Both the position numbers and the translations under genes were made by a program. Positions 32,919 to 55,379 of a stretch of 64,000 bases of DNA are shown in pieces. The first letter of the stretch is position 1, and each line of letters opens with the position of its first letter. The DNA is from Actinomycetota bacterium (lineage in GTDB: Bacteria; Actinomycetota; Actinomycetes; S36-B12): contig JAUXRN010000257.1 of assembly GCA_030681835.1 (NCBI GenBank), positions 1 through 64,000 of the forward strand, read 5' to 3'. The notes beneath the pieces are model-generated. The model ran no database searches, was not told the DNA's origin, and saw nothing but the letters and a program-made list of their open reading frames with translations.

Positions 32919-32966
32919 GATCCGACCAGCAATCGACCATCACGACCCCGAGGAAGGACCGCTGCC

Positions 32967-35397: not shown

Positions 35398-35414
35398 ACC
35401 GTCGGGGTTGCGCC

Positions 35415-36770
35415 TCAGTCTGACGTGTTGATGAACACGTTCTTCGTCTCGGTGAAGGCGTCGAGCGCGTCAGGCCCGAGCTCGCGCCCCAGCCCCGACT
35501 GCTTGAAGCCGCCGAACGGCGTCCAGTAGCGCACGGACGAATGCGAGTTGACGGACAGGTTCCCCCCGTCGACGGCCCGTGCGACGCGCAGTGCACGCCC
35601 GATGTCCCTCGTCCAGATCGAGCCGGACAGGCCGTAGTCCGTGTCGTTCGCCATGCGGATGGCGTCCGCTTCGTCGCTGAAGCGCACGACCGTGACGACC
35701 GGCCCGAAGATCTCCTCGCGGTAGGCAAGGTCGGACTCGGCGGACTCAAGCACGGTCGGCGGGAACCAGAAGCCGGGACCCTCCGGGCAGGAGCCGCGGA
35801 ACGCGACCGGGACATCGTCGGTGACGAACGATGCGACCCGGTCCCATTGCCGGCGCGAGATGATCGGCCCCATCTCGGACGCGGGGTCGCCCGGGTCGCC
35901 GACCCGGATGCCCTTGACGGCGGGCTCGAGGAGCTCCATGAACCGGTCGTAGACGGAGGCCTGGACGAGGATGCGCGACCGGGCGCAGCAGTCCTGGCCA
36001 GCGTTGTCGAACACGCCGTACGGGGCGGTCGCGGCCGCCGCCTCGACATCCGAGTCGGCGAACACGATGTTGGCGGACTTGCCACCGAGCTCGAGCGTGA
36101 CCCGCTTGACCTGCTCGGCGCAGCCGGCCATGACCTTCTTGCCGACATTGGTCGATCCCGTGAAGGCGACCTTGCGGACGAGCGGATGCTCGACGAACCG
36201 CTGCCCGACCACCGGGCCCTCGCCCGGGATCACGGTGAGCACTCCCTCGGGGATCCCGGCCTCGAGCGCATAGGCGGCAAGCGCCACTGCCGACAGGGGC
36301 GTGTACTCGGCTGGCTTCAGCACGACCGTGCATCCGGCGGCCAGGGCCGGTGCGAAACCCCACGTAGCAATCGACATCGGGAAATTCCACGGAACGATCA
36401 CCCCGACCACGCCGATGGGCTCCTGGAACGTGATGTCGATGCCGCCAGCCACCGGGATCTGCCGGCCGAACATGCGTTCGGGTGCCCCCGCGTAGTAGTC
36501 CAGCACGTTCGCCACGTGCTGGGCCTCCCAGCGCGCATTGCCCGCCACGTGGCCGGCGTTGACGATCTCCATGCGCATCAGCTCGTCCTCGTGCGACCGC
36601 ACGACGGTGGCGAACCGGCGCAGCAGGGCGGCCCGGTCCCCGGGGGCAACGGCACGCCAGGCCTCCAGGGCGCGGTGCGCTCGTTCGATCGCCGCATCCG
36701 TCTCCTCGACCGAGGCCCAGGGGATGTCGGCGATGACCTCTTCGGTGGCGGGATTGATGACGTCGGCCAC
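35415..36770 (-). CDS. Aldehyde dehydrogenase, close paralog of 5664-7031
   Basis: VIVPWNFPMSIATWGFAPALAAGCTVVLKPAE, ELGGKSANIVFADSD, NAGQDCCARSRILV. Confidence 0.9.
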   Translation of the reverse strand: MADVINPATEEVIADIPWASVEETDAAIERAHRALEAWRAVAPGDRAALLRRFATVVRSHEDELMRMEIVNAGHVAGNARWEAQHVANVLDYYAGAPERMFGRQIPVAGGIDITFQEPIGVVGVIVPWNFPMSIATWGFAPALAAGCTVVLKPAEYTPLSAVALAAYALEAGIPEGVLTVIPGEGPVVGQRFVEHPLVRKVAFTGSTNVGKKVMAGCAEQVKRVTLELGGKSANIVFADSDVEAAAATAPYGVFDNAGQDCCARSRILVQASVYDRFMELLEPAVKGIRVGDPGDPASEMGPIISRRQWDRVASFVTDDVPVAFRGSCPEGPGFWFPPTVLESAESDLAYREEIFGPVVTVVRFSDEADAIRMANDTDYGLSGSIWTRDIGRALRVARAVDGGNLSVNSHSSVRYWTPFGGFKQSGLGRELGPDALDAFTETKNVFINTSD

Positions 36771-37914: not shown

Positions 37915-39597
37915 TCAACCGAGGGCAGCCAGCACGAGTCCGTACGCGACGGCCCACCGGTGGCCCAGCCGACCCGCGACGTTGCCACGCCCGGCCGCCG
38001 TCCCGGGCAGGACGCCGTTGATGGAGTCGAGCAGCTCGTCGTCCCCGGCGGGGCCGCCGACGAGCAGCAGGTCGCCCGCGGGGGCATCGAGGTCGCGCAG
38101 GACCCGGCTGAGGTTGTCGGCGAAGACCGCCCGCTTGAGGGCCTGGCGGACCGCTCGCCACTGGCCCAGTTCCAGGCGGGCCGCGAACGGTAGCGGACCA
38201 CCCGGCCCAGGGGAGGTGAGCCAGCCCACCGCGCCAGCCGGCGCCGGCGGCTCGAGGAACTCCCGGACCCCGGTCTCCCGGACCGCGACGTGGGGGCTCT
38301 CGATCCGCGACGCAGGCCCGCGCTTGGCCCATTCGGCCGCGCCGGACGCGATGCCCAGTGCCTCGGCGACGGCGATGGTCAGCATCGCCCCCGATCCCGC
38401 TGCGGAGACGACCTGAAGGCCGCGGTGTCCGATACCGGTCGCGTCCACCGATCCACCACCGAGGTCGATGACGGTCGCGTCCGCGGAAGCCCCCGGCGTG
38501 GTCAGGGCACCCAGCCGGCCCGCCTCGGCCTCCGAGGACACCATCCGGACGGATCCGGCGTGCCCTTGCTGGAATCCGGTGACGTGCTGGTGTGCGCCGG
38601 CGACGGGCGTCATGGCGGAGACGATCACGGTCCGGTTCGCCAGGGTGTCGGGATGCAGGCCGGGCAGCCCGGCCACCATGTCGAGGTCGACGAGCCAGAG
38701 GTCCGCCGCCGTCATGGGCGCGCTGCGCGGCAGCCGGAACGTCACGGCGATGTCGAGGGGGCGGCCGGCCAGGGGCTCGCGGGCGTCCCGAAGCGCTCGG
38801 CGCGCGGTGCCCGGCCACTCGACCCACGCCTCTGGCCCGGACTGCTCGAGTCGGGGAGGCTCGGCCCGGTCGTGCGCTCGCACGCCCAGCACCGCGGACC
38901 GCGAGCCCTGGACCCGGGCGCAGGCCGCGACCGCCTCGGCGTGCTCTGCTGGGTCGAGTCCGAGGGCAGCACTCAGCCGGATCGGGTCGGATGCAGCCCG
39001 CACCTGGTCGCCGGGGCGGGCAACCTCGACCAGGACCCGGGCGCAGGACAGCACCGCATCGGGGTCGATGCAGTCGGCAACGGGGAGGGCCAGGTCCAGG
39101 CGCGCGGACACGAGGACTGCCTCGTCTCCTGCGAGCAGGATGCCGACGACCGGATGCCCGGCGTGGAGCCAGGCACGTGCCTGGGCCACCGTCGACTGGT
39201 AGCCGAGTGGATCCCGGGCCACCAGGACGATGTCCTCTCCTCCGCCCGCCGGGGTCGAGGCGATGTCGACGGGCCGACCGGCCCCCAGGCCGGCGCCGGC
39301 CGGTGTGGACGAGCCCGTTGACACGACCATGACGCGACCGGTGTCCACGGCGGGCTCGGGAAGCTCGGCGCTCATCGTGGTGACGGGAGACTGGGCAGTC
39401 ATGGCCACCAGGTCGGCCCGCCGTCCGAGCGACACCTCCATCCGAGCCAGCAGGCGTGCGGCCCCAGCACCGGAATCCAGCGAGCCCTTGATGCCGCGAG
39501 TCGGCCTGCGGTCCCACCGGACGGGTGTGCCGTTCTCGTCGGCGATCACGATCTCGGTCGTGGCGTTGCCGATGTCGACGCCCGCGACGAGGGTCAC
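37915..39597 (-). CDS. Diol/glycerol dehydratase reactivase large subunit (DdrA/PduG-like)
   Basis: VAGVDIGNATTEIVIADENG actin-like ATPase fold, VIDLGGGSVDATG, TPAGGGEDIVLVARDPLGYQSTV; GTG start; directly downstream of dehydratase subunits. Confidence 0.87.
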   Translation of the reverse strand: MTLVAGVDIGNATTEIVIADENGTPVRWDRRPTRGIKGSLDSGAGAARLLARMEVSLGRRADLVAMTAQSPVTTMSAELPEPAVDTGRVMVVSTGSSTPAGAGLGAGRPVDIASTPAGGGEDIVLVARDPLGYQSTVAQARAWLHAGHPVVGILLAGDEAVLVSARLDLALPVADCIDPDAVLSCARVLVEVARPGDQVRAASDPIRLSAALGLDPAEHAEAVAACARVQGSRSAVLGVRAHDRAEPPRLEQSGPEAWVEWPGTARRALRDAREPLAGRPLDIAVTFRLPRSAPMTAADLWLVDLDMVAGLPGLHPDTLANRTVIVSAMTPVAGAHQHVTGFQQGHAGSVRMVSSEAEAGRLGALTTPGASADATVIDLGGGSVDATGIGHRGLQVVSAAGSGAMLTIAVAEALGIASGAAEWAKRGPASRIESPHVAVRETGVREFLEPPAPAGAVGWLTSPGPGGPLPFAARLELGQWRAVRQALKRAVFADNLSRVLRDLDAPAGDLLLVGGPAGDDELLDSINGVLPGTAAGRGNVAGRLGHRWAVAYGLVLAALG

Positions 39598-39950
39598 CTC
39601 AGCAGGCCTCGCGACTCATAGGCATCCGCGGCCTCCCGGACGAGGGCTGCGTTCGCGCCTGCCCCCGCGGACTCGAGCTCGTCGGCGATCGCCACCAGCT
39701 CGGCGAGCGTCGATCGCCCCGGGCGCAGGGCCTCGTAGATGGCCACGATCCTGTCGTCGGGGAGGCCGGTGAGCTCGGCGGCACGCCGCAGGTTGGCGGC
39801 TAGCTGGGGGTTGGCGTGCTCCTCGGCAACGCGGGCCTGATGCTCCAGGGTGTCGGGGTGGATGCGCACGTCGTCGGGGGTGAGCATCCCGGCGCGCAAG
39901 GCGTCGAGGGTGACCTCCGCGACGGGGCGGCCCGATCGGGCGACGGTCAT
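39594..39950 (-). CDS. Diol dehydratase small subunit (PduE-like)
   Basis: VTLDALRAGMLTPDDVRIHPDTLEHQARVAEEHANPQLAANLRRAAELTGLPDDRIVAIYEALRPGRST matches small-subunit core. Confidence 0.85.
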   Translation of the reverse strand: MTVARSGRPVAEVTLDALRAGMLTPDDVRIHPDTLEHQARVAEEHANPQLAANLRRAAELTGLPDDRIVAIYEALRPGRSTLAELVAIADELESAGAGANAALVREAADAYESRGLLR

Positions 39951-42190
39951 CGTCGGTCCTCCTCGAGCGCGAGAGTCTCGGGCGGGAGCCCCGGCGCGCA
40001 GCATTGCCGCTCGATCGCGACGAGGGAGACGACGGTGGTGTGGTACCGCGCCTCGATGGCCTCGTCGGAGTAGGGATTGCGCAGGGGCTCCGGCGTGGAG
40101 CCCTTCGCGTGACGGCCGGCGTTGACGCCGAGCTGTCGGTAGGCCGATCGGTCCAGCGTGGGGGCGACGCTGTACAGCTCGAGGTTCGCCAACGGGGTGA
40201 GGTCGCGGCGATGAATCAGCGCGGTGCCCTTGGCCTGCAGGCCGATCCCGATCCCTGACCCGGCCAGGCGTGCAGCGGTCAGCCCGATGAGCCCGAGATC
40301 GATCGTGTCATTGATCCGCACGATGCGGCCGCGGCACCCCTCCTCCTCCAGTCCGGCCAGCAGCTCGGCCAATGCCTCGTCGACCGTGAGCCCGCACAGG
40401 GTCCGCCAGATCGCCCTCCCCGTGGCGGGCGAGACGCCGATGACCACGTCGCGCGGGTCGTGCTGGACGTCGGCCGGCCCCGACGAGGCAAGGCGGGACG
40501 AGGCGAACGAGGCCTGCTCGGAGCGCAGGTCGTCGACGGAACGCTGCTGGCGGATTCCGTCCATCTCGACCTGGCGATCCGGCGTCGGTTGGTACCCGGT
40601 GCCCGGACCGGCATAGTCGTTGGGGTCGGTGACCAGGGAGAGCACCTGCATGTCCTCGGTGAAGATGGCCGAGGTCTGCAGGTAGTCGCCGATGACGCGG
40701 GCGCGGAGCATCGCGAGCAGTCGTTCGGCCTCGAGCTCGTAGCCGGTCTCGTCCAGGGCCGCGATGACGTCCAGCATCGTCACCTGCCCATCGCGGATGA
40801 GCCGGGAGGCGCTCAACGGGGTCATGAGGTCGGCAGCCGGCACGTCCTTGGAGCCGGCCGCATCGATGGCCTGGTCGCGCCACTCGTCCGAGAAGTCCGC
40901 CAGGCCGAGGACCTGGTAGACGTCGCGGACCGCGTCCGTGGCCCGTTCGCGCAGGCGCGCGACCTCGGGCTCGGCGGCGGGTCGCAGCCCACCGTCGACC
41001 CCCCAGTCACGCTGCATGACGAGCCAGTCGTCGATGTCCTCGGCGTTCCACTGGCTGGGCCCGAACATGTTGTCGTAGCGCTGGATCGAGCCGAAGCCGC
41101 TGGTGATGAAGTCAGTGCCGCCGATGAAGATCGGATGAGTGCGCGAGGTCCTGCGGACGTGCGACTCGCTCATCAGCGCATCGTTGCCGGTGCACGACTC
41201 CAGGTTGCGGAGCATGACCATGAGGTTCTCGGCCATCATGGCGCGCACGCCGCTGGGCACCGCGCCTGCCACGGACGCCGCATCGATCCCTCCGTTCTGC
41301 ACGCCCTGCGAGCCGATGGCGCGCGCGAGCGCCACGCACCGCGCCTCGAGGTAGAACATGGAGCGGCCCTCGGCGCTGCCCATCAGGGCTTCCGAGCCCC
41401 CTCCCGACGTCACCCGCATCTTGATGCCGCGGCTTGCGTAGGCCGAGGTCAGGAAGGCCTTGGACCACGGGGTGTCGTCGCCATCGATGAAGATCTGCTC
41501 GGTCCCGTACAGCGACACGGTTTCGGCGTACGACACCAGCCCTCGCATCCCCATCTCGAGTTCGAGCGCCTCCTCGACCGAGCACTGCACGAGGATCCCC
41601 GCGGAAGCCACGGCCGAGCCGATGCTGACGGCGATGGCGTTGGACGGCGCATCGCCGAGCACAGGCACTGTCGTCTCGACCTCCCGGAAGCCGAAGGCCG
41701 CGGCGGTTGCGGCGTCGGCGGCCAGCAGAAGCGGGTCGTCCGACCGGTTGGTGACATGCGCCTGGTTGCTCGGTGTCCTTCGGGCACGGCACTTCGTCAG
41801 GCCGATGGTCAGCTCGGCCGGCCGCAGCAGGGCAAGGCACCGGGCCAGCTTCGCGGGCGTCATGCCGGCAGCGAGGCGCACGACCTCGCCGCGGGGCACC
41901 CCGGGATCCACGATCATCCGCGCGTAGGCGAGCTCGCTCGTCGCCATCGCCTCTTCGGCAGTCACGAGGTCGAGCCCGTGGTCGGCAATGAAGCGGTCGA
42001 GCAGGTCGAAGTCGGCCCGTTCCCGGGAGTCCATCTGGACGACGACGCCATCTGCGATCACCAGCGAGGGTTCGGGATCGTTCGGCGAATCGAAGGCCAG
42101 GAGGCCCAGGTCGACATCGGGGACGGCGAAGCCGTCGAGGTTGACCCGCTGCTCGTCCATGAATCGGAAACGCCCGATCGGTCGAGTCAT
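39947..42190 (-). CDS. B12-dependent diol/glycerol dehydratase, fused large+medium subunits
   Basis: PVLGDAPSNAIAVSIGSAV, RMRVTSGGGSEALMG-like (KMRVTSGGGSEALMGSAEGRSMFYLEARC), QGVQNGGIDAASVAGAVPSGVRAMMAEN; C-terminal about 180 aa resembles PduD (GLQAKGTALIHRRDLTPLANLELYS). Confidence 0.9.
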   Translation of the reverse strand: MTRPIGRFRFMDEQRVNLDGFAVPDVDLGLLAFDSPNDPEPSLVIADGVVVQMDSRERADFDLLDRFIADHGLDLVTAEEAMATSELAYARMIVDPGVPRGEVVRLAAGMTPAKLARCLALLRPAELTIGLTKCRARRTPSNQAHVTNRSDDPLLLAADAATAAAFGFREVETTVPVLGDAPSNAIAVSIGSAVASAGILVQCSVEEALELEMGMRGLVSYAETVSLYGTEQIFIDGDDTPWSKAFLTSAYASRGIKMRVTSGGGSEALMGSAEGRSMFYLEARCVALARAIGSQGVQNGGIDAASVAGAVPSGVRAMMAENLMVMLRNLESCTGNDALMSESHVRRTSRTHPIFIGGTDFITSGFGSIQRYDNMFGPSQWNAEDIDDWLVMQRDWGVDGGLRPAAEPEVARLRERATDAVRDVYQVLGLADFSDEWRDQAIDAAGSKDVPAADLMTPLSASRLIRDGQVTMLDVIAALDETGYELEAERLLAMLRARVIGDYLQTSAIFTEDMQVLSLVTDPNDYAGPGTGYQPTPDRQVEMDGIRQQRSVDDLRSEQASFASSRLASSGPADVQHDPRDVVIGVSPATGRAIWRTLCGLTVDEALAELLAGLEEEGCRGRIVRINDTIDLGLIGLTAARLAGSGIGIGLQAKGTALIHRRDLTPLANLELYSVAPTLDRSAYRQLGVNAGRHAKGSTPEPLRNPYSDEAIEARYHTTVVSLVAIERQCCAPGLPPETLALEEDRR

Positions 42191-42618
42191 GGGCACTCGC
42201 TCTGGAACAAGGTGACAGCAGCCTGCGCGGCCGCTTGGTCCTGGGAACCGGTCCCTCCGCTCACGCCGACTCCACCGACCACCCGGTCGCCGTCCCACAG
42301 GGGCAGGCCTCCCGCGAAGGCGATGAATCGACCGTGGTCGGCGCTGGTCATGCCGGCCAGGTCGGCTCCCGGCGCGACCAGTTCGGTGAGCTCGTGCGTG
42401 CCGATGCGATGTGCCACGGCGGTATAGGCCTTGTCCGGTGCGAGGACGGGCCCGGCGATCTCGGCGCCGTCCATGCGGGCGAAGGCAACGAGGTGACCGC
42501 CCCCATCCACCACCGCGACGGACACGAGCGCCCCTTTCCTCGTTGCGGCAACTATCGCCTCGGTGCACATGCGCTGGGCGAGGTCGAGATCCATCTCGAA
42601 CCGGTTCACCCGGCCCAT
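42187..42618 (-). CDS. GlcG/HbpS (DUF336, PduO C-terminal-domain-like) protein
   Basis: VAVVDGGGHLVAFARMDGAEI..PDKAYTAV..GGLPLWDGDRVVGGVGVSGGTGSQDQAAAQAAV. Confidence 0.85.
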   Translation of the reverse strand: MGRVNRFEMDLDLAQRMCTEAIVAATRKGALVSVAVVDGGGHLVAFARMDGAEIAGPVLAPDKAYTAVAHRIGTHELTELVAPGADLAGMTSADHGRFIAFAGGLPLWDGDRVVGGVGVSGGTGSQDQAAAQAAVTLFQSECP

Positions 42619-43625
42619 GCGGAGGCCACCTTTCGCAGCCGGCCGTGGACGCCGTCCATCGCGCTGACTCCCAAGAGGAGGGATGTGGGCACCTTGCACA
42701 CCACGGTGTAGTTCGTGTCCACGACGTTCGCGATCGGGCTGAGGGCGGTCTGCGAGACGAACTGGTAGGCATCGAGCGCACTCATGCCCGTGAGTTCGGC
42801 AACCCAGCGCACCATCTGCTGGTGAGCTATCCGGAACGCGTCCTCGAGGGGGCGTGCGGAACCTGTGGTCATGAGAAAATCGTCGCTCTCCAGGCGGGGC
42901 CACGCCGTCGCCGCCCCCGGGATCAGGTCCAGGATGAACGTGGTGTCCATGGCGCACTCGACGGCGACACCGCAGGTCTCGCCCTCGCCCTGTCGGGCGT
43001 GGCCATCGCCGAGGCTCATCAGCGCGCCCTCGACGTTGACGCCGAGGTAGCAGGTCACCCCGGCCCGCATCTCCGGTGTGTCCATGTTGCCGCCCCAGTC
43101 GCCCGGGGTGAGGGACGAACGGACCTCTCCGAGAGCCGGAGCGACGCCGACCGTCCCGTGCATCGGATCAAGCGGGAGAGCGGCCGTGAACGGGGTATCG
43201 GCGGCCAGGTAGCGCACGATCCGGTCCGCTCGATCGATCTCGTAGATCCAGGTTCGCTCGAGGAGGGACTCGTGCAGCATCGCCGTCGTCGGAGTCGCCG
43301 TGAGCGCCCCGAAGAAGGGGACTGTGCTGCTCACGCCCCAGGTCTCGCGGGGTTCGATGGACACGAAGTGCACGGCCAGGGTGTCGCCGGGCCGCGCCCC
43401 CTCGACGTAGAACGGCCCGGACTGGGGGTTCAGCAGTCGCGGGTCGCAGACCTGGCTGGCCAGGTCCGTGCTGGACCGCACCCGGCCGCCGAAGCAGTCC
43501 ATCGTCCAGGTCGAGATCATGGTTCCGGGGCGGACGGAGGCGACTGGTGCGACACCGCCGAACGTGTAGGCGTAGGTGGTCGGATCAGCATCGGCGTCCG
43601 GTTCCCAGTGCAGGGTCTCGTCCAT
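42606..43625 (-). CDS. Acetamidase/formamidase family (FmdA/AmdA)
   Basis: NPQSGPFYVEGARPGDTLAVHFVSIEP, GNMDTPEMRAGVTCYLGVNVEGALMSLGDGHARQGEGETCGVAVE. Confidence 0.9.
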   Translation of the reverse strand: MDETLHWEPDADADPTTYAYTFGGVAPVASVRPGTMISTWTMDCFGGRVRSSTDLASQVCDPRLLNPQSGPFYVEGARPGDTLAVHFVSIEPRETWGVSSTVPFFGALTATPTTAMLHESLLERTWIYEIDRADRIVRYLAADTPFTAALPLDPMHGTVGVAPALGEVRSSLTPGDWGGNMDTPEMRAGVTCYLGVNVEGALMSLGDGHARQGEGETCGVAVECAMDTTFILDLIPGAATAWPRLESDDFLMTTGSARPLEDAFRIAHQQMVRWVAELTGMSALDAYQFVSQTALSPIANVVDTNYTVVCKVPTSLLLGVSAMDGVHGRLRKVASAWAG

Positions 43626-43671
43626 GGCGCTCCTCGGGATGCGTGGTCGATGCCGATGCTGCCGTAGATGA

Positions 43672-43707
43672 CTGAGGGGTGCACGGCATTCGCCATGCAC
43701 CCCTCAG
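43672..43707 (-). terminator. Stem-loop terminator/attenuator candidate downstream of permease
   Basis: 12-bp inverted repeat CTGAGGGGTGCA/TGCACCCCTCAG with nested GGC-ATTC-GCC. Confidence 0.7.
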
Positions 43708-43718
43708 CGCTGGTGAGG

Positions 43719-45332
43719 CTAGACCCGCTCGTGGGCCTCCTCGATCGTCGTGCGACCGATCTCGGCGTAGATGTCCGGGGCCTTCGCACGCACGTAAAGG
43801 GCATACACGACGCCGATCACGAACAGGCCGATGACGTAGTACGGCATCCACTGGAACACGAGGCTGTCCGCCGCGAGTCCGGCCGCGAAGTTGCGGTTGG
43901 ACCAGAGCAGGTACAGCACGTAGAGCATGCCGGCCGCACCGACGATCGGGGCGATGAAGGTGGTCAGGATATTGCCCTTGTGCACCTTCTTGACCCAGAA
44001 GAACCAGATGACCGCGAAGCAGGTGATCGTCTGGACGATGAGCACCATCGCGGTGCCGATGAGGGCCAGCAGGCCATAGACGTTGACATAGGGGATGAGA
44101 TCCGGGGTGGCGACGGGGGTGCCGTTTGCATCCGGGACGTAGACGTTCGTGAAGAGCAGGAACAGGAGCATCAGCAGGACGGTGATGCCGCTCTGGACGA
44201 ACGAGGCGACGGCGGGGGAGCCGTGCTTCTCGTTCACGTGGCCCAGGCTGCGGCGCACGAACGGGGTGATGCTCTCGCGTCCCATGGCGTACAGGTAGCG
44301 GGATGCCGCATTGTGGAAGGCCATGGCGCAGGCGAACGAGCCGACGACGACGAGGAGCTTGTAGATGTTCTCCAGGAAGCCGCCGAGATTCTGGTTGACG
44401 AGGCCCAGCCACAGATCGATGGGCGACGCACCGGCGGAGATCTCGACAGAGGTGGCGGCACCGTTGCCGACGACGACCATCCACGACATCCACGTGTAGA
44501 ACAGGCCGAGGCCCACCACCGCGATCATGGTGGCCAGCGGCACGTTGCGCTTGGGGTTCCTCGACTCCTCGCCGTACACCGCGGTCGTCTCGTATCCGAC
44601 CCAGGACCAGAAGGCGAAGAAGATGCCGATGGCTGCGGCACCTGCGGCGACCCCGGTCCCGAAGGCCCCTTCGGGAAGAGAGGTGAAGGCCGCTACCGGG
44701 TTGACGGTGTCGGCCGCCATGTAGCCGTCGGGGCCGCCCTTGAAGAGCACCGACATGCCCAGCGTGCCCAGGATCAGGACCTCGGCCACGAGCGTCACGC
44801 CCAGCACGCTCGCGGCCAGCGACACCGAGAAGTACGAGAGGATCGCGATGATCGCGATGCCGATGAGGGCTATGACGAGCCAGTGGATGGTCAGCCCCAT
44901 GGGCACAAGGACGTACTGCGTGGTGAAGTACGCGAATCCGCCGATCAACGACGCCTCGAAGATGACGTAGGCAACGGCCGCGACCAGGCCCGAGGCCATG
45001 CCCCACACCTGGCCGAGCCCCTGCGAGATGAATCCGTAGAAGGCCCCGGCCGTGGTGACGTAGCGGGCCATGGCGACGAAACCGATGGTGAAGATCGTCA
45101 GCACAATGGTCGCGAAGAGGTAGCCGCCCGATACGGCGATGCCGTTGCCGTAGCCGATGGCGATCGGGACGTTGAGGCTCATCGCCGTGATCGGCGCCGC
45201 GTTCGCGACGGCCATGAACAGGACGCCGACGAGTCCGACCGCGCCGACCTTGAGTCGGGCGGAGTCCTGGGGTCGGATCTGGTGGTCTCCGGGAAGGGTG
45301 TGCGGGCCGTCCTCGTGGCTGCTCGTGCTCAT
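43719..45332 (-). CDS. APC-superfamily amino acid permease
   Basis: Multi-TM; NAAPITAMSLNVPIAIGYGNG, FAFWSWVGYETTAVYGEESRNPKRNVPLATM; ATG at 45332. Confidence 0.88.
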   Translation of the reverse strand: MSTSSHEDGPHTLPGDHQIRPQDSARLKVGAVGLVGVLFMAVANAAPITAMSLNVPIAIGYGNGIAVSGGYLFATIVLTIFTIGFVAMARYVTTAGAFYGFISQGLGQVWGMASGLVAAVAYVIFEASLIGGFAYFTTQYVLVPMGLTIHWLVIALIGIAIIAILSYFSVSLAASVLGVTLVAEVLILGTLGMSVLFKGGPDGYMAADTVNPVAAFTSLPEGAFGTGVAAGAAAIGIFFAFWSWVGYETTAVYGEESRNPKRNVPLATMIAVVGLGLFYTWMSWMVVVGNGAATSVEISAGASPIDLWLGLVNQNLGGFLENIYKLLVVVGSFACAMAFHNAASRYLYAMGRESITPFVRRSLGHVNEKHGSPAVASFVQSGITVLLMLLFLLFTNVYVPDANGTPVATPDLIPYVNVYGLLALIGTAMVLIVQTITCFAVIWFFWVKKVHKGNILTTFIAPIVGAAGMLYVLYLLWSNRNFAAGLAADSLVFQWMPYYVIGLFVIGVVYALYVRAKAPDIYAEIGRTTIEEAHERV

Positions 45333-45499
45333 GGACCATCCTTCGAGGGTCTCGACCCGCGTGATGCAGGTCACGTGGGTCGGAGTATGGCGCCCGCGAT
45401 AGACCGGTACAAGCACATTCGACGTTTCCGGTCTGGAAGGATCCTGACCGTTAAGTCGATTGGTCTTGATTCGGTCTGCTTATTCGGTATTATTCGCGT

Positions 45500-46825
45500 G
45501 TGAGCGGTCAGACCAATCTTGAGTCAGCGGGGTCGGCGGGGTACGACTACGGCCTGTTCTCGTTCGCCTCGAAGGCCGAGGTTCTCGACAAGGCCAAGGA
45601 GTACTGGAACCCCGGGAAGACGCAGTTCTGGATCGACGCGGGGGTCCCGCTGGTCATCGACCGGCGCGAGGAGTACTACATCTGGGACATGTCGGGCAAG
45701 CGCCTGATCGACCTGCACCTCAACGGTGGCACCTACAACATCGGCCACCGGAACCCGGAGGTCGTCCAGGCCCTGACTGTCGCCATGCAGCACTTCGACA
45801 TCGGCAACCACCACTTCCCGGCACTGGCACGGACCGCCCTCGCCGAGGCCCTCATCGCCTCCGCGCCCGAGGGGCTGTCGAAGGTCATCTACGGATCCGG
45901 CGGTGGCGAGGCGATCGACATCGCGCTGAAGACGGCCCGTCACACCACGCAGAAGCGCAAGATCGTCTCGATCATCAAGGCCTACCACGGGCATACTGGC
46001 CTGGCGGTCGGCACGGGTGATGACCGGTTCTCCAAGCTGTTCCTCGCCGACCAGCCCGAGGAGTTCCCGCACGTCCCGTTCAACGACCTCGACGCGATGG
46101 AGGACGCCCTCCGCGGGCGCGACGTCGCGGCCGTGATCATGGAGACCATTCCCGCCACCTACGGCTTCCCGCTGCCCGACCCGGGCTACCTGCGCGCGGT
46201 CAAGGGGCTGTGCGAGGAGTACGACGCGCTCTACATCGCCGACGAAGTGCAGACCGGCTTGATGCGCACCGGGGAGCTGTGGGGGATTACCAAGGAGGGC
46301 ATCGCGCCGGACATCCTCGTGACCGGCAAGGGCATCTCGGGGGGCATGTACCCAATCGCCTGCGTCCTGGTGAACGAGAAGTCGGCTGGCTGGCTCACCG
46401 AGGACGGCTTCGGCCACATCTCGACATTCGGCGGTGCCGAGCTCGGCTGCATCGCGGCGATCAAGGCGCTGGAGATCTGCTCCCGCGACGAGACGCGGTC
46501 GATGGTCCACTACATCGCCGACCTGGTCGGCACCGGCCTGCGTGCCATCCAGGCCGAGTACCCCGAGTGGTTCGTGGGCATCAGGCAGAACGGCGTGATC
46601 CTCGGACTGGAGTTCAACGATCCGCAGGGCGCGAAGTACGTCATGCGCCATCTGTACGAGAACGGTGTCTGGGCCATCTTCTCCACCCTCGACTCCCGCG
46701 TCCTGCAGTTCAAGCCGGGGATCCTGCTCAAGCCCGAGGTGGTCGAGGAGGTGCTCGACCGTACGGAGGTGGCGATCGGCCGGGCCTACCGCGAGGTCAT
46801 GGGCCTGCGGAAGGCAGGCCGATGA
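45500..46825 (+). CDS. Class-III aminotransferase-fold PLP enzyme; probable amino-alcohol-phosphate phospho-lyase of RMM/AUM BMC
   Basis: YGSGGGEAIDIALKTAR, IADEVQTGLMRTGELWG, ILVTGKGISGGMYPIACVLV (PLP Lys); first gene of BMC operon. Confidence 0.85.
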   Translation: MSGQTNLESAGSAGYDYGLFSFASKAEVLDKAKEYWNPGKTQFWIDAGVPLVIDRREEYYIWDMSGKRLIDLHLNGGTYNIGHRNPEVVQALTVAMQHFDIGNHHFPALARTALAEALIASAPEGLSKVIYGSGGGEAIDIALKTARHTTQKRKIVSIIKAYHGHTGLAVGTGDDRFSKLFLADQPEEFPHVPFNDLDAMEDALRGRDVAAVIMETIPATYGFPLPDPGYLRAVKGLCEEYDALYIADEVQTGLMRTGELWGITKEGIAPDILVTGKGISGGMYPIACVLVNEKSAGWLTEDGFGHISTFGGAELGCIAAIKALEICSRDETRSMVHYIADLVGTGLRAIQAEYPEWFVGIRQNGVILGLEFNDPQGAKYVMRHLYENGVWAIFSTLDSRVLQFKPGILLKPEVVEEVLDRTEVAIGRAYREVMGLRKAGR

Positions 46826-48384
46826 CGGCCCTTCTGGCGGACATCCCGCTCGAGCCGGCCGGCGTTCCGCGCGGCCGGGCGATGGTCGAGCGCGCCGATT
46901 GGGCCGCGCGGTCGTTCGCGACCTACGACATCGAGACCGTCCGTCGCATTGCGAAGGCGGCCGCCGAAGCAGGGGAGAAGCACGCATCGGAGTTCGCGGA
47001 GGCGGCCGTCGCCGAGACGGGCTTCGGCGTGGCCGAGCACAAGGTGCTCAAGAACGTGGCGTGCTCGATCGGCATCTGGAACACCTACGGCTCGCATGAC
47101 TACGTCTCACCGGTCGTGCACGCCGACCGGCGCATCGTCGAGATCCCCCGTCCGGCAGGGGTGGTCCTTGCGCTGACGCCGTCCACCAACCCGGTCGCCA
47201 CCACCTACTTCAAGATCATGCTGGCGCTGCTCTCGCGGAACGCGATCATCATCAGCCCGCATCCGTTCGCCCGGAAGGTGGGCGTGCAGGCTGCGCACGT
47301 CATGCGGGACGCCGCCATCGCGGCGGGTGCCCCCGACGGCTGCATCCAGGTCGCCGAGGAGCCGTCCATCCCGCTGATCAACGCGCTCATGACCGATGAG
47401 CGCGTCGACGTCATCGTCGCGACGGGCGGAACTCCCATGGTCCGCGCCGCCTACCGCAGCGGCAACCCGGCTATCGGGGTGGGCCCGGGCAATGTCCCCG
47501 TCCTGGTCGACGGCACCGCGGATCTCACGCTCGCGGCCCGGCGCCTGGTCGCAAGCAAGAGCTTCGACAACTCGATCCTGTGCACCAACGAGTCGGTCGT
47601 CATCGTCGAGGAGCGCATCGAGGCACCGTTCACGGCCGCGATGAAGCGCGAAGGTGCCTACGTCCTCGAGGGCGACGAGATCGATTCGGTGCGCGGGGTC
47701 ATCTTCGAGGGCGACCACTTCAACACGGCATGGGTCGGCAAGTCCGCGCTGCGGATCGCCGACGCCGCCGGAGTCAAGGTCCCCAAGGCCACGAAGGTCC
47801 TGGTGGCGCCGTTCTCGATCGTCGTGCCCGAGGAGATGCTCGCTCACGAGAAGCTGTGCCCGGTCCTCGGGATGGTCACGGTCCCGAGCGCCGCTCGCGG
47901 CATCGATGCGGCTCGTGCCGTGCTGCGCATCACCGGCGCCGGCCACAGCGCCGCGATCCACAGTGAGGACGCCGACACGATCATGGCGTTCGCGGCCGCG
48001 GTCCGGGTCCTGCGGGTCTCCGTCAATGTCGGCAACAGCCTCGGCAGCGCGGGGATCGAGACCAACCTGGCGCCCAGCATGACCATCGGCACCGGCTTCT
48101 TCGGTCGATCCTCGGTGGGGGAGAACCTCGAGCCGAAGCACCTGGTGAACCACACCCGGATCGCCTACAGCTCCGATGAGCGGATCCCGATGGCCGACTT
48201 TGCCGGGCTCAGCCCGTGGCAGGCGCCGCATGGTCCCGTCCCGACCTACCCGATCGCGTCCAACATGGACGATGCGCCGCAGCTGGTCAGGGCCAACGGC
48301 CCGGCCAGCGAGTCGACGGACGAGCTGCGGGATGAGATCCGCAAGCTCGTCATCGAAGAACTCCGACAGATCATCAAGGGCTGA
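46822..48384 (+). CDS. BMC-associated acylating aldehyde dehydrogenase with C-terminal encapsulation-peptide-like helix
   Basis: LALTPSTNPVATTYFK, SFDNSILCTNESVV catalytic Cys, C-terminal linker plus STDELRDEIRKLVIEELRQIIKG. Confidence 0.9.
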   Translation: MTALLADIPLEPAGVPRGRAMVERADWAARSFATYDIETVRRIAKAAAEAGEKHASEFAEAAVAETGFGVAEHKVLKNVACSIGIWNTYGSHDYVSPVVHADRRIVEIPRPAGVVLALTPSTNPVATTYFKIMLALLSRNAIIISPHPFARKVGVQAAHVMRDAAIAAGAPDGCIQVAEEPSIPLINALMTDERVDVIVATGGTPMVRAAYRSGNPAIGVGPGNVPVLVDGTADLTLAARRLVASKSFDNSILCTNESVVIVEERIEAPFTAAMKREGAYVLEGDEIDSVRGVIFEGDHFNTAWVGKSALRIADAAGVKVPKATKVLVAPFSIVVPEEMLAHEKLCPVLGMVTVPSAARGIDAARAVLRITGAGHSAAIHSEDADTIMAFAAAVRVLRVSVNVGNSLGSAGIETNLAPSMTIGTGFFGRSSVGENLEPKHLVNHTRIAYSSDERIPMADFAGLSPWQAPHGPVPTYPIASNMDDAPQLVRANGPASESTDELRDEIRKLVIEELRQIIKG

Positions 48385-48387
48385 CAC

Positions 48388-48990
48388 GTGGCTGAGCTGA
48401 GATCGTTCATCTTCCTCGATCGCCTGCAACCGCAGACGATGTGCTACCTCGGCACCTGGGTGCGCGGGTCGCTCCCTCGCGCTGACTACGCCGCGCAGAT
48501 CATCGAGGTGGCTCCGGGCCTCGATATCGAGCCCCTCACCGACGTTGCGCTCAAGCACGCCGACGTGGGTGCGGGCATCCTGTTCGTCGAGCGGCAGTTC
48601 GGCTACCTGGAGATGCACGGCCCCACCAGCTCGGTGCGCAGCGCTGCGGATGCCGTACTGGACCAGTTGGGGGCGACTGCGGCCAGCGCCACGCGGCCGC
48701 AGGTGCTCGCATCGCGAATCGTCCCGAAGATCGACCGCCAGCACGCGTTCCTGATCAACCGGAACAAGATCGGCTCGATGGCGCTGCCCGGCCAGTCGAT
48801 GTTCGTCCTGGAGATGCAGCCGGCCAGCTACGCCATCCTCGCGGCGAACGAGGCGGAGAAATCCGCCCGCATCACGCTCGTGGACTACCGGATGGCAGGT
48901 GCCACCGGGCGCCTGTACCTGACCGGGTCGGAGTCCGAGGTGCGCGCAGCAGCCGAGGCGGCCGAGGCGGCCCTGGAGGCGGTGGCCTGA
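48388..48990 (+). CDS. BMC-T-type (tandem BMC domain) shell protein
   Basis: 200 aa, homologous to 49958-50617 product; [73 protein letters not shown]. Confidence 0.85.
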   Translation: MAELRSFIFLDRLQPQTMCYLGTWVRGSLPRADYAAQIIEVAPGLDIEPLTDVALKHADVGAGILFVERQFGYLEMHGPTSSVRSAADAVLDQLGATAASATRPQVLASRIVPKIDRQHAFLINRNKIGSMALPGQSMFVLEMQPASYAILAANEAEKSARITLVDYRMAGATGRLYLTGSESEVRAAAEAAEAALEAVA

Positions 48991-49349
48991 TGTCCACGGC
49001 GGTACCGCCCGATCTCCTGCGCGAGGTCATCCGCGAAGTCGTGCGCGAGGTCATCCGCGAGGTCGTCGCGGAGGAGATCGCCGCGGCGGCCGCGGGCTCG
49101 CTCGGGCGGGGCCCGGCGTCATCTGCATCGTCCCGCCGACACGTCGAGCCTGCCGCCCGTCGGCCGGATTTGCCGGGGCCGGCCACCGGCGGGTCCCCCG
49201 TGCTGCAGCGCGGCGCTCTCACCGAGCGCCATGTCCGCGCGGTCGACAAGTCCGGCACGATAACCATCGGCAAGGCCGTCGTCATCACGCCCCTGGCCCG
49301 CGAGCGAGCGAGGTCCATGGGTGTGCAGATCATCAGGATCGAAGGGTAG
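48990..49349 (+). CDS. Small BMC-operon protein with N-terminal (REVI/REVV)4 helix and EutT/PduO-like 'TPLARERARSMGV' motif
   Basis: ATG overlaps upstream stop; LLREVIREVVREVIREVVAEEI; C-terminus VITPLARERARSMGVQIIRIEG. Confidence 0.75.
   Translation: MSTAVPPDLLREVIREVVREVIREVVAEEIAAAAAGSLGRGPASSASSRRHVEPAARRPDLPGPATGGSPVLQRGALTERHVRAVDKSGTITIGKAVVITPLARERARSMGVQIIRIEG
49020..49067 (+). repeat. Four tandem 12-bp in-frame repeats (cgcgaggtcatc-like)
   Basis: cgcgaggtcatc / cgcgaagtcgtg / cgcgaggtcatc / cgcgaggtcgtc. Confidence 0.9.
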
Positions 49350-49357
49350 GAGAGGCC

Positions 49358-49609
49358 ATGCTGCGCGCACGCGTCATCGGAAACGTCTGGGCGACGAAGA
49401 AGGTCTCGTCGATCCCGAATGGGGCCTTCCTGGAGGTCGAGGTGGAGCCGGGTGGCTCGCGCCTCATCGCCTTCGACGTGCTGGGCTCCGGCGTCGGCGA
49501 GGCGGTCCTGGTCGCGACCGGGTCGGTCGCTGCGTCGTGGTTCGAGGGGGAGGCCCCGCCGATCGATGCCCTGATCATCGGGTCCATCGACGAATCCACG
49601 AGTCACTGA
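49358..49609 (+). CDS. BMC-P (EutN/CcmL) pentameric vertex protein
   Basis: [30 protein letters not shown]...[26 protein letters not shown]-like ([12 protein letters not shown]). Confidence 0.93.
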
Positions 49610-49679: not shown

Positions 49680-49961
49680 ATGTCCAACTACGCGATCGGC
49701 ATGATCGAGACCCGGGGGTATGTTGCGGCACTCGCTGCGGCCGACGCCATGGTCAAGGCAGCCAACGTGACCATCGTCAGCCGGGAGCAGGTCGGCGCCG
49801 GCCTGGTGGCCGTCACCATCCAGGGTGACGTCGGAGCCGTCAAGGCGGCGACCGAGGCCGGGTCCGAGGCGGCGAGCCAGGTCGGTGAGCTCGTCAGCGT
49901 CCACGTGATCCCGCGTCCGCACGCAGAGCTCGCCAAGAACTTCGGCGTCTCGGCGTCGTGA
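49680..49961 (+). CDS. BMC-H hexameric shell protein
   Basis: [61 protein letters not shown], canonical 93-aa Pf00936-type. Confidence 0.95.
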
Positions 49962-50617
49962 CGACGGGCAGCATGCCCGCACCTGCGTCCCCGGAACTCC
50001 GCGTCTACCTGCAGATCGAGGATCTCCAGCCGCAGTTCGCGGCCTACCTCGGAACGCCGACGCGGGCGCGTGGCTACCCGCCGTACGCGGGCCAGCATTC
50101 GCTGATCGTCGAGGTGGCCCCTGGGCTCGCGATCGAGCGCGTCACCGATCTCGCCCTGCGGTCCGCGCCCGACGTCGCGCCGGGAATCCTGTTCGTCGAG
50201 CGGCAGTTCGGCGTGCTCGAGGTGCACGCGGACAGTCTCGACCACGTGCAGCAGGCTGGCTCGGCAATCCTGGCGGGGATCGATGCCCGGGCGGAGGACC
50301 AGATGCGCCCGCGGGTGCTGTTCCACGACATCATCGAGGACATCACCGACCAGCACGCGGTGATCATCAACCGCAATCGCCAGGCCTCGATGATCCTGCC
50401 GGGCCAGAGCCTGCTGGTCTTCGAGATGACCCCCGCGCTGTTCGCGGCCATGGCGGCGAACGAGGCCGAGAAGGCAGCACCCGACATCACGCTCGTCGAC
50501 GTGCAGATGATCGGGGCGGCCGGCCGCGTGTACATCTCGGGAACGACGCAGTCCGTGGCCGTCGCCCGCGAGGCGATCAGCACGGCTTTGGCTGCAGTGA
50601 CGGGACGCGACCAGTAG
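49958..50617 (+). CDS. BMC-T-type shell protein, second paralog
   Basis: 219 aa; [71 protein letters not shown]. Confidence 0.85.
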
Positions 50618-50660: not shown

Positions 50661-51638
50661 GTGCACGACGCAGTGACATCGTTCGAGGTGTTCGCCCACG
50701 CGTCGCTGCCCGCATACGGCCTCGACCCGAACGCCGAGGTGACCCTTCTCAACGTGTCCGAGAACGGCACCTTCCGGGTCGACGACCCGGTGCAGGGACG
50801 CTCGGTGCTTCGCGTCCATCGCACCGGCTATCACTCGCAGGAGGCAATCCTCAGCGAGCTCGACTGGATCGCCGCCCTGAGGGAGGACGGGATCGTCTCG
50901 ACGCCGGCCTTCATGCCCGCACTGGACGGTCAGCGGGTCGTCACGGCGCGGACGCCCGACGGAGGTGAGCGCCACGTCGTCCGGTTCGCGTGGGTCGACG
51001 GCGTGGAACCCACCGAGGACCGCCTGGCCCAGGACTTCGAGGAACTCGGTGCCATCACCGCCCGCCTGCATATCCACTCGAAGGCCTGGACGCGGCCCGC
51101 CGAGTTCACCAGGTTCGTGTGGGACTACGACACCTCGATCGGCGATCACGGACACTGGGGCAGGTGGCAGGAGGGCTTGGGCATCGGTCCCGCGGAGACG
51201 GCAATCCTCGACCGCTGCTCGACCAGGATCCGCGAGCGACTCGCGGCGTATGGCAAGGGGCCGGAGCGCTTCGGGCTGGTGCATGCCGACATGCGGCTGG
51301 CCAACCTTCTGGTCAACGGACCCGCGGTCAACGTGATCGACTTCGACGACTGTGGCCTGAGCTGGTTCATGTACGACCTCGGGTCATCGTTGTCGTTCAT
51401 CGAGCACGAGCCGTACGTGCCGGAGCTCGTCGACGCGTGGGTGCAGGGCTACCGGTCGGTGAGCCCGATGAGCGCCGAGGAGGAAGCCGAGCTGCCGACC
51501 TTCATCATGCTGCGCCGCATGCTGCTGGTCGCGTGGGTCGGGTCCCACGCCGCGACGGATACCGCACAGCAGATGGGCCCGGAGTACGGGGTGACGAGTT
51601 GCCGCCTGGCTGAGGAGTACCTCAGCAGGATGTCCTGA
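50661..51638 (+). CDS. APH-fold kinase, probable 1-amino-2-propanol kinase of RMM/AUM
   Basis: [42 protein letters not shown]; sits in BMC operon. Confidence 0.83.
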
Positions 51639-51646
51639 GGAGGAAC

Positions 51647-52429
51647 ATGTTCGGATCAATCGCAGGTCGCTCCGTTGTCGTCACGGGCGCGACGAAGGGC
51701 ATCGGCAAGGGGATCGCGCGGGTGATGGTCAGGGCGGGCACGAACGTCCTCATCACCGGTCGCAACGAGGAGGATGCCAGGCGCACGGTCGGCGAACTGG
51801 CGGAGCTGGGCTCCGGGACAGTGGCCTACTTCCTCGGTGACGTCGCGGATGCGGGGGCCTGCCGCGACATGGCGCAGGCTGCCGTCGATGCCCATGGCGG
51901 AATTGACGTGCTCTGCGCGAATGCCGGGATCTTCCCCGACGCGAAGCTCGTCGACATGTCCGAGGTGGACATGGACCTGGTCCTCGGCACCAACGTGAAG
52001 GGCACGATCCTCAGCGTGCAGGCCTGCCTCCCGGCGCTCAAGGCGAGCGGCCATGGACGCGTGATCCTCACGTCGTCGATCACGGGGCCCATCACCGGCT
52101 ACCCGGGGTGGTCGCACTACGGCGCGAGCAAGGCTGCCCAGTTGGGGTTCATGCGGACGGCGTCGATCGAGCTCGCGCCGATGGGCATCACGGTCAACGC
52201 TGTCCTTCCCGGGAACATCGCGACCGAGGGGCTGGCAGATCTCGGCGAGGACTACCGTCGGTCCATGGAGATGTCCATTCCCCAGCGCCGGCTCGGCGAC
52301 GTCGAGGACATCGGCAACGTCGCGCTGTTCTTCGCCTCCGATGAGGCCGGCTACATCACCGGACAGGCCCTTGTCGTGGATGGTGGCCAGATCCTCCCGG
52401 AGTCCCTGGCGGCCCTCGAAGCGATGTAG
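51647..52429 (+). CDS. SDR-family (amino-alcohol) dehydrogenase of BMC operon
   Basis: [62 protein letters not shown]. Confidence 0.88.
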
Positions 52430-52435
52430 GCAGCC

Positions 52436-53245
52436 GTGGACAGCATCGTCGCCGACGAACCGTCGGGCATCGGCCCCACCGGCGAGGACGTCCGTAGGCG
52501 GATCGTCGGGATGGTCGAGCGGGGCTCACTCCAGCCAGGAGAGAAGCTGGGCGCCGAGCGGGAGCTCGCGACCCGGCTAGGGGTGAGCAGATCGACCCTG
52601 CGCCAGGCGCTCGCGTCCCTCGAGGAGTCGGGCGTGATCCGTCGGGTCCCGGGCCGCGGCGGCGGGACGTTCATCGCGTCGGCCAAGGTCGAGCGCGACC
52701 TGTCCCGAATCGTCGGCGTTCCGATGCTTCTTCGCGATCAGGGCTTCACTGCGGGCTCCCGGGTGGTGAGCGTCGGCGTCGCCACTGCCGGGCCCGACGC
52801 GGCCGAGGCCCTGGGCATCCGGGAGGAGGACTTCGTCGTCGACCTGGTGCGGATCCGGCTGGCCGACGGGGCTCCCATCTCACTGGAGCATGCGGTCTTC
52901 CCCGCAGAGCTGGTACCCGGGCTACCGGAGCGAGACCTCGGCGGCTCGATCTACGAGCTCATCGACCGCGAGTACGGATTGCGTCCGGAGGAGGCGATCG
53001 AGCACATCGAGGTGACAGAGGCCGGGGCGCTCGAGGCATCGATCCTGGGCATCGCGGCAGGCTCCCCCCTGGTATCGATCACCAGGACCACGCGGGACCC
53101 CCACGGCGTGGTCTTCGAGTACTCACGCGACCTGTTCCGGGCCGACCGGACCCGGATCAGCGTGCGGGTCAAGGGATCCCCGACCCACGAGACGGCCCGC
53201 CTGCGCGGCCGGGTCGTCGAGCTGGTCCCGCCGCAGGAGGCCTGA
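52436..53245 (+). CDS. GntR/HutC-family regulator with UTRA domain
   Basis: LQPGEKLGAERELATRLGVSRSTLRQALASLEESGVIRRVPGRGGGTFI; EHAVFPAELVPGL UTRA signature. Confidence 0.92.
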   Translation: MDSIVADEPSGIGPTGEDVRRRIVGMVERGSLQPGEKLGAERELATRLGVSRSTLRQALASLEESGVIRRVPGRGGGTFIASAKVERDLSRIVGVPMLLRDQGFTAGSRVVSVGVATAGPDAAEALGIREEDFVVDLVRIRLADGAPISLEHAVFPAELVPGLPERDLGGSIYELIDREYGLRPEEAIEHIEVTEAGALEASILGIAAGSPLVSITRTTRDPHGVVFEYSRDLFRADRTRISVRVKGSPTHETARLRGRVVELVPPQEA

Positions 53246-54399
53246 TGCCGACGGCGCGCGACGTGGGCTTCCCGCTGGCCGGCCAGCCGGGACCGGCCAA
53301 CGCGGTGACCGACGTGCGGGGCGTCAGCGTCGGTCACGTCACGATCATCACCGACGACCCCGAGGATCCGCACCGCGCAGCCCGGACAGGCGTGACGGCC
53401 ATCCTGCCGCGGGGGCGAGACGGGATCGGCGTCACCGCGGCGTGCGGCATCAGCGTCCTGAACGGAAACGGCGAGATGACCGGATCGCACTGGATCGCCG
53501 AGACCGGCGCTCTCGGCGGCCCGATCATGCTCACCAATACCCACGCGGTCGGGACAGTGCACCGCGGGGTGATCGACTGGATCGCCGCGAACCGACCGGA
53601 TGGGACCATGGAGTGGCTGCTTCCTGTGGTCGCCGAGACGTGGGACGGCTACCTCAACGCGATCAACGAGCCGCACGTCACGGGCGCCCATGCGGCGGAG
53701 GCGATCGAGGCCGCGAGCTCCGATCGGCCGGCCGAGGGTTCGGTCGGCGGTGGCACGGGCATGAACTGCTACGAGTTCTCCGGGGGATCCGGCACGTCCT
53801 CCCGGATCGTCTCGTTCGGTGGAGTCGACTACGTGCTCGGCGTGATCGTCCAGGCGAACTTCGGTTCGCGCGACGAGCTCACCGTGGCAGGCGTCCCCGT
53901 GGGCGACCTCGACGCGCCGAACCCGATCGCCGCCGACGGGTGGTTTGCCGCCGACGTGGCGCGGGTGGCACCTCCGGGCGCTGGCTCGGTGATCGTTGTC
54001 GTCGCGACTGACGCCCCGATGCTCCCTGAGCAGTGCCAGGCGCTGGCCCGCCGGGTCCCCCTCGGGCTGGCTCGAACCGGGACGATGGGCAGTCACTTCA
54101 GTGGTGACCTGTTCCTTGCCTTCAGCACCGCCAATCCTGGCGCACTCGACAGTGGCTTCCCCCACGGTCCGGCCGATCGCGATGCGCTGCGCTCCCTCGA
54201 CTTCGTGCCCTGGAACCGCATGGACCCCTTCTTCCGGGCTACCGTGCAGGCCGTCGAGGAGGCCGTACTCAACTGCCTGACGACGAACGTCGACCTGGCG
54301 GGCCGGTCCGGGCACTGGATGCCGGCGCTGCCGGTGGACCAGGTAAGCCGGCGCCTGATGCGGTCGGGGCTACTCCCCGGTCATCCCCAGGAACCGTAG
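53245..54399 (+). CDS. P1-family peptidase (DmpA/L-aminopeptidase/D-esterase-like)
   Basis: AVTDVRGVSVGHVTI, GNGEMTGSHWIAETGALGGPIMLTNTHAVG, VGGGTGMNCYEFSGGSGTSSR, FGSRDELTVAGVPVG. Confidence 0.9.
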   Translation: MPTARDVGFPLAGQPGPANAVTDVRGVSVGHVTIITDDPEDPHRAARTGVTAILPRGRDGIGVTAACGISVLNGNGEMTGSHWIAETGALGGPIMLTNTHAVGTVHRGVIDWIAANRPDGTMEWLLPVVAETWDGYLNAINEPHVTGAHAAEAIEAASSDRPAEGSVGGGTGMNCYEFSGGSGTSSRIVSFGGVDYVLGVIVQANFGSRDELTVAGVPVGDLDAPNPIAADGWFAADVARVAPPGAGSVIVVVATDAPMLPEQCQALARRVPLGLARTGTMGSHFSGDLFLAFSTANPGALDSGFPHGPADRDALRSLDFVPWNRMDPFFRATVQAVEEAVLNCLTTNVDLAGRSGHWMPALPVDQVSRRLMRSGLLPGHPQEP

Positions 54400-55371: not shown

Positions 55372-55379
55372 CCGGCCGG

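Follow-up and report, generated by a model that had tools for sequence, protein, structure and literature searches.

Axen et al. (2014; PMC4207490) gave the name RMM2 to a locus type in which diol dehydratase genes are encoded opposite to an RMM core. According to these authors, the BMC probably does not use the dehydratase, the alternative offered being a "bifunctional" BMC, and RMM2 is devoid of the hydrolases of RMM1. A catalogue published in 2021 (PMC8217296) retains both RMM1 and RMM2, the dehydratase being unmentioned in its main text. Whether the RMM2 shell uses two signature enzymes has been a question since 2014. The locus analyzed here is a further example of RMM2, and its arrangement as well as both interpretations have been known since that time. 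A literature search on RMM2 yielded no description of the switch at residues 301 (Asp) and 336 of the dehydratase or of shell-free relatives.

Gene content of the locus

By gene calling and Pfam profile searches, both arms were identified in the window (the whole stretch of 64,000 nucleotides that was analyzed), the dehydratase genes on the minus strand and, diverging from them, an RMM/AUM-type BMC operon on the plus strand. The host of the locus is a freshwater actinobacterium. All six minus-strand genes named in a preliminary description of this DNA were recovered, and the distance of about 170 bp given there between the start of the dehydratase arm and the first gene of the BMC operon is 168 bp, measured from the ATG of the permease to the GTG of the aminotransferase. 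In the order of transcription, the dehydratase arm and the adjoining promoter region comprise:

43719..45374, minus strand: APC-superfamily permease, first gene of the arm, likely ATG start at 45331 (PF13520, 91 bits)
42606..43625, minus strand: acetamidase/formamidase family protein (PF03069, 89 bits)
42187..42618, minus strand: HbpS/GlcG-like (PduO-C-like) protein (PF03928, 115 bits)
39947..42190, minus strand: fused large and medium subunits of a B12-dependent diol/glycerol-dehydratase-like enzyme, single ORF (PF02286, 761 bits; PF02288, 85 bits)
39594..39950, minus strand: dehydratase small subunit with a short N-terminus (PF02287, 134 bits)
37915..39597, minus strand: dehydratase reactivase, large (alpha, DdrA/PduG-like) subunit (PF08841, 150 bits; PF18427, 61 bits)
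45332..45499, no strand: 168-bp divergent promoter region with repeated TTGGTCT/TCGGTMT half-sites close to the aminotransferase start

The nearest PDB match of the fused enzyme is the glycerol dehydratase 9vii. With PF02286, PF02287 and PF02288 and the conserved metal and catalytic residues, the enzyme belongs to the B12 diol/glycerol dehydratase superfamily. It carries Asp301 and Ala336 (K. oxytoca numbering). A separate DdrB/PduH-like gene for the small subunit of the reactivase was not present among the gene calls. The genome contains one dehydratase and encodes a cobalamin adenosyltransferase and methylmalonyl-CoA mutases, which makes B12 use and the disposal of propionyl-CoA plausible.

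The BMC arm consists of eleven genes:

45500..46825, plus strand: class III aminotransferase-family enzyme, putative amino-alcohol-phosphate phospho-lyase (PF00202, 239 bits)
46822..48384, plus strand: CoA-acylating-type AldDH with a C-terminal encapsulation-type helix (NCBIfam AdhE/EutE-type, 446/386 bits)
48388..48990, plus strand: BMC-T (tandem) shell protein, MSM0275 type (top PDB match 5l39, E 5e-91)
48990..49349, plus strand: 119-aa protein with an N-terminal encapsulation-type helix (helix moment 0.71; no Pfam match)
49358..49609, plus strand: BMC-P shell vertex protein (PF03319, 71 bits)
49680..49961, plus strand: BMC-H shell protein (PF00936, 97 bits)
49973..50617, plus strand: BMC-T (tandem) shell protein, MSM0271 type (top PDB match 5suh, E 5e-100)
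50661..51638, plus strand: APH-family amino-alcohol kinase (PF01636; top PDB match 6ef6, 336 bits)
51647..52429, plus strand: SDR, 1-amino-2-propanol dehydrogenase type (PF13561; PDB matches 6ci8/6ci9, about 330 bits)
52436..53245, plus strand: GntR/UTRA regulator (PF07702, 133 bits; PF00392)
53245..54399, plus strand: S58 (DmpA-type) peptidase/amidase (PF03576, 352 bits)

The BMC-T, kinase and SDR proteins have their nearest solved structures among the RMM proteins of Mycobacterium smegmatis or close homologues by annotation. We take 6ef6 to be an aminopropanol kinase and 6ci8/6ci9 to be an aminopropanol dehydrogenase. The latter assignment is supported by the reference list of PMC6620236, and a kinase and a dehydrogenase of this type have been reported for 1-amino-2-propanol in M. 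smegmatis, in part by references given there. The kinase stands beside a class III PLP enzyme, as in the pairs of kinase and ammonio-phospholyase (hydroxylysine kinase/phospho-lyase, ethanolamine-phosphate phospho-lyase). Lyases are found among the class III PLP enzymes (PMC8154272), and the ethanolamine-phosphate phospho-lyase 6tor is among the PDB matches of the window's enzyme; however, 6tor is not a close homologue and a putrescine aminotransferase scores higher, so that the role as a lyase is putative.

With a full RMM core including BMC-H, BMC-P and BMC-T genes, the aminotransferase, AldDH, APH kinase, SDR, GntR and permease genes, and the dehydratase on the opposite strand, the locus qualifies as RMM2 through the dehydratase that defines this type, although it retains hydrolases (acetamidase and S58 peptidase) that RMM2 was described to lack. 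RMM1/AUM/Aut loci (M. smegmatis, Rhodococcus) resemble it in the proteins whose closest structures are given above, but do not contain a dehydratase. What it has in common with PDU and dha glycerol dehydratase operons are the large, medium and small subunits, the reactivase and the HbpS-like neighbour. What separates it from them are the fusion of the large and medium subunits, Asp301/Ala336, the RMM-type shell genes and the missing call for a reactivase small subunit. Moreover, the dehydratase of PDU loci is co-operonic with the shell and carries an encapsulation peptide, whereas that of the window is encoded on the opposite strand, shows no such helix and has relatives with still other gene orders.

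Linkage of the dehydratase in related genomes

The divergent pair of arms was seen again in about thirty relatives, which excludes a chance arrangement. The window's order was sampled with 168 genomes, named relatives including Candidatus Nanopelagicales MAGs. The dehydratase (at least 70% identity) was detected in 35 of them, the RMM AldDH in 36 and the kinase in 37, and all 35 dehydratase genomes possess the AldDH (Fisher p about 2e-35, a value that ignores relatedness). The genomes in which the genes do not match (G040, G109, G148 and G161) are fragmented MAGs. G161 was rejected as a case of a shell without dehydratase, its contig ending just past the aminotransferase gene. Even inside the window's own genus the island is patchy, yet both arms travel together. 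Being patchy in the order as well, it seems to have been moved horizontally.

A wider survey, one scan of 85,488 species, yielded 67 loci. Neighbours were counted in those of the close family for which 7 kb or more was available on each flank, 25 loci in all. Aminotransferase III and kinase genes lie near the dehydratase in every one of them. A shell lies within 10 kb of it in 20 loci; two gammaproteobacterial loci were rejected as shell-free since a genome-wide search placed their shell just past the 10-kb flank, bringing the total to 22 of 25. The refuting observation named in the preliminary description, a dehydratase operon usually separated from BMC genes in relatives, was not made, co-occurrence in the order being essentially perfect. 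Besides the divergent order of the window, convergent (L103, L113, L114) and collinear arrangements, the latter with GntR followed by the dehydratase (L100, L108, L147), were encountered. With or without a shell, nearly all relatives have the permease gene divergent from that of the aminotransferase.

By contrast, whole-genome searches revealed no BMC genes in Actinoplanes subtropicus (L099), Trebonia kvetii (L109) and two Streptosporangiaceae MAGs (L110 and L112), the fourth case, L112, having shorter flanks and standing outside the 25-locus count. The RMM AldDH is likewise absent from these four genomes. Their dehydratase sits together with the aminotransferase, kinase and SDR, in Actinoplanes with EutB/EutC immediately upstream. 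In the tree, L099 and L109/L110 occupy two separate positions; hence the shell was probably lost more than once while dehydratase and kinase were kept. Since shell-free genomes keep the dehydratase with the kinase and the PLP enzyme, its link is to the amino-alcohol enzymes and not to the shell as such. On plasmids of Agrobacterium and Shinella, a fused dehydratase 48-49% identical to that of the window, also with Asp301, belongs to an operon of dehydratase, small subunit, SDR, kinase, aminotransferase III and GntR genes. An ABC transporter of the sugar type accompanies them, and shell genes are not annotated within 8 kb. The rhizobial kinase and aminotransferase share only 25-27% identity with those of the window and correspond to the opposite termini of a different family, in which kinase and aminotransferase are fused. 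That dissimilar versions of these enzymes accompany the dehydratase in the same functional roles speaks for a working link. On the other hand, kinase, PLP enzyme and SDR occur without the dehydratase in L160 and, without PF02286, in G508, and two more distant Asp301 dehydratases (L145 and L146; about 60% identity) lack kinase/PLP neighbours.

Residues of the substrate pocket

The dehydratases were aligned with classical enzymes of Klebsiella, Citrobacter, Ilyobacter, Cetobacterium, E. coli and actinobacteria. Position 301 is Asp in all 60 family members and in all four distant fused homologues, while it is Ser in each of the 11 classical enzymes. At position 336, the family has Ala (window), Thr or Asn in place of the classical Gln. 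Neither Ser301 nor Gln336, which mark functional propanediol/glycerol dehydratases, is therefore present in the window. The metal and catalytic residues (Q141, H143, E170, E221, Q296, D335 and S362) are retained, so that the protein should be an active dehydratase. A single branch of the tree (support 100/99) splits the Asp301 from the Ser301 class. The fusion alone does not cause the switch, since L144 is a fused enzyme with Ser301/Ala336.

Both positions line the C3 subsite of the substrate, where Ser301 forms a hydrogen bond with the 3-OH of glycerol, and mutants in them show a shifted substrate (chain-length) range (PMC9850924, PMC7674605). The acidic residue in this subsite hints at a substrate of cationic nature, and the enzyme is unlikely to be a plain propanediol dehydratase. 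Asp301 could instead tune the resistance to inactivation by glycerol or bind a hydroxyl. The AlphaFold2 model of the fused enzyme (mean pLDDT 64.8, active-site region mostly below 50) was too poor for conclusions on pocket geometry.

Targeting to the shell

In PduD, the medium subunit, the encapsulation helix is located at a free N-terminus, a site that the fusion of the large and medium subunits abolishes in the window. A targeting helix, which the preliminary description proposed to look for, was not recognizable by helical moment at the N-terminus of the large subunit or at that of the small subunit, which starts only about ten residues ahead of the conserved core, and the linker of the fused protein, judged by eye, is not of the encapsulation type. 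The same test displayed the helix of Ilyobacter PduD, and it revealed a strong amphipathic, encapsulation-type helix at the C-terminus of the AldDH (DELRDEIRKLVIEELRQIIKG) and another strong one at the N-terminus of the 119-aa protein; it is a simple calculation in which several helices elsewhere in the same proteins score equally high. Cargo can enter shells even without a recognized peptide.

Divergent promoter region

EM motif finding on the upstream regions of the aminotransferase genes returned a repeated TTTGGTMTR half-site near the start of this gene, the top site of the window being at 45474, which is a candidate operator. Immediately before the dehydratase, a match was found in L106 only; convergent loci did not have the half-site upstream of this gene, and the EM search did not demonstrate an operator common to the dehydratase promoters of non-divergent loci. 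An Rfam scan of 34-56 kb gave zero matches and hence, by the Rfam models, no cobalamin riboswitch.

Discussion

Gene content, linkage and residues are best accommodated by an RMM2-type amino-alcohol regulon in which the dehydratase would be a specialized, probably cytosolic second aldehyde-forming enzyme, likely acting on a cationic substrate; we assign this reading a probability of roughly 0.5. On the plus strand, an amino alcohol would be imported, the SDR would interconvert it and the corresponding amino ketone, and the APH kinase would phosphorylate it. The PLP enzyme may then release aldehyde, ammonia and phosphate, the aldehyde being converted to acyl-CoA by the shell-enclosed AldDH. The minus-strand permease might bring in the same substrate class, and the fused dehydratase would act in parallel as an aldehyde-forming enzyme under presumably shared regulation, rather than as the signature enzyme of the shell. 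Its substrate is proposed to be positively charged near carbon 3, e.g. 3-amino-1,2-propanediol, because Ser301 and Gln336 of the propanediol/glycerol dehydratases are replaced by Asp and small residues. A broader proposal, which we put forward tentatively, is that the Asp301 clade constitutes a separate B12 family dehydrating or deaminating amino diols or vicinal amino alcohols and recruited beside kinase/phospho-lyase pathways in Actinomycetota, on Rhizobiaceae plasmids and in marine Gammaproteobacteria, the shell being optional. If this clade indeed takes aminated substrates, a textbook B12 enzyme family would be extended to an uncharacterized substrate class.

It is rather doubtful that 1,2-propanediol and 1-amino-2-propanol are both converted to propionaldehyde within one shell and passed to one acylating AldDH, as the preliminary description and Axen et al. 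(2014) considered. Propionaldehyde would be the product of both routes, the co-occurrence of the dehydratase with the shell AldDH is near-perfect in the order, and the mutases and adenosyltransferase of the genome fit such a hybrid; with a shell in 22 of 25 loci, it is possible that the dehydratase still uses it. However, shell-free genomes keep the dehydratase with kinase, PLP enzyme and SDR, an encapsulation peptide is not visible, and the pocket differs at 301 and 336 from every classical propanediol/glycerol dehydratase sampled. Of the two readings in the preliminary description, the dual-substrate shell is hence not favoured, while action on a hydroxylated amine outside the shell fits better.

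An ordinary cytosolic propanediol/glycerol dehydratase, linked to the other arm merely by co-transfer of nutrient-scavenging islands, is unlikely. The exchange Ser301Ala lessens inactivation by glycerol (PMC9850924), so that Asp301/Ala336 might just curb suicide inactivation, and the island is patchy and seemingly mobile; but the linkage persists through shell loss and several gene orders, and the dehydratase was independently paired with unlike kinase/PLP genes in Rhizobiaceae. Still less probable is a pathway in series, in which kinase and PLP lyase turn an amino diol (e.g. serinol) into a hydroxyketone, the SDR forms 1,2-propanediol and the dehydratase propionaldehyde: it is plausible chemistry for the known families and accounts for the joint travelling of these genes with or without a shell, but leaves Asp301 unexplained and conflicts with the occurrence of kinase, PLP enzyme and SDR without the dehydratase and with the 1-amino-2-propanol activities reported for M. 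smegmatis.

For the preferred reading, a cytosolic enzyme with a cationic substrate, positions 301 and 336 are the two expected to set the substrate. The comparison makes the RMM2 question testable with cultured strains, shell-free ones (Actinoplanes subtropicus, Trebonia kvetii) versus shell-bearing ones (Kineosporia, Nocardioides agariphilus).

Gamma-glutamyl-amine-type genes at 28-36 kb were considered as partners of the dehydratase and rejected, the adjoining ADH/AldDH genes accompanying it only in one 98% identical relative. The acetamidase gene is missing from some relatives, and in L103 and L098 its slot is occupied by the S58 peptidase.

Asp301 dehydratases in other genomes

In the tree, the Asp301 dehydratases (K. 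oxytoca numbering) of three marine gammaproteobacterial MAGs (L106, L092, L093) are nested within the actinobacterial clade, which points to horizontal transfer of these sequences. For Actinoplanes subtropicus, EutB/EutC (ethanolamine ammonia-lyase) was detected directly upstream of the Asp301 dehydratase (L099:7667-9959). At two further loci (L103:492-2037 and L098:963-2510), an S58 peptidase occupies the position of the acetamidase in other loci, just before GlcG and the dehydratase: one amide hydrolase swapped for another. On the rhizobial plasmids (L130, L131), no annotated reactivase was found within 8 kb of the Asp301 dehydratase.

Genes adjoining the dehydratase and within or next to the BMC operon

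28384-36770: two glutamine-synthetase-like genes, PuuD-like C26 peptidase, SDRs, aminobutyraldehyde-type AldDH
48990-49349: 119-aa protein, strong N-terminal encapsulation-type helix and C-terminal stretch GKAVVITPLARERARSMGVQI
54370-58957, minus strand: kynureninase, 3-hydroxyanthranilate dioxygenase-like protein, RidA-like protein, FAD monooxygenase, amidohydrolase

The genes at 28384-36770, which adjoin the dehydratase, look like a catabolic cluster for gamma-glutamylated amines. The adjoining ADH and AldDH recur only in one relative (98% identical). On the other side, the minus-strand cluster at 54370-58957, a kynurenine-type degradation cluster, adjoins the microcompartment (BMC) operon.

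Within the operon, the 119-aa protein had no match in Pfam or NCBIfam. Among the amino-alcohol microcompartment (RMM) loci it is conserved yet fast-evolving, with about 30-55% identity. At 45488-45500, the GTG start of the aminotransferase is preceded, a few bases upstream, by TATTAT, an arrangement like that of leaderless actinobacterial mRNAs.
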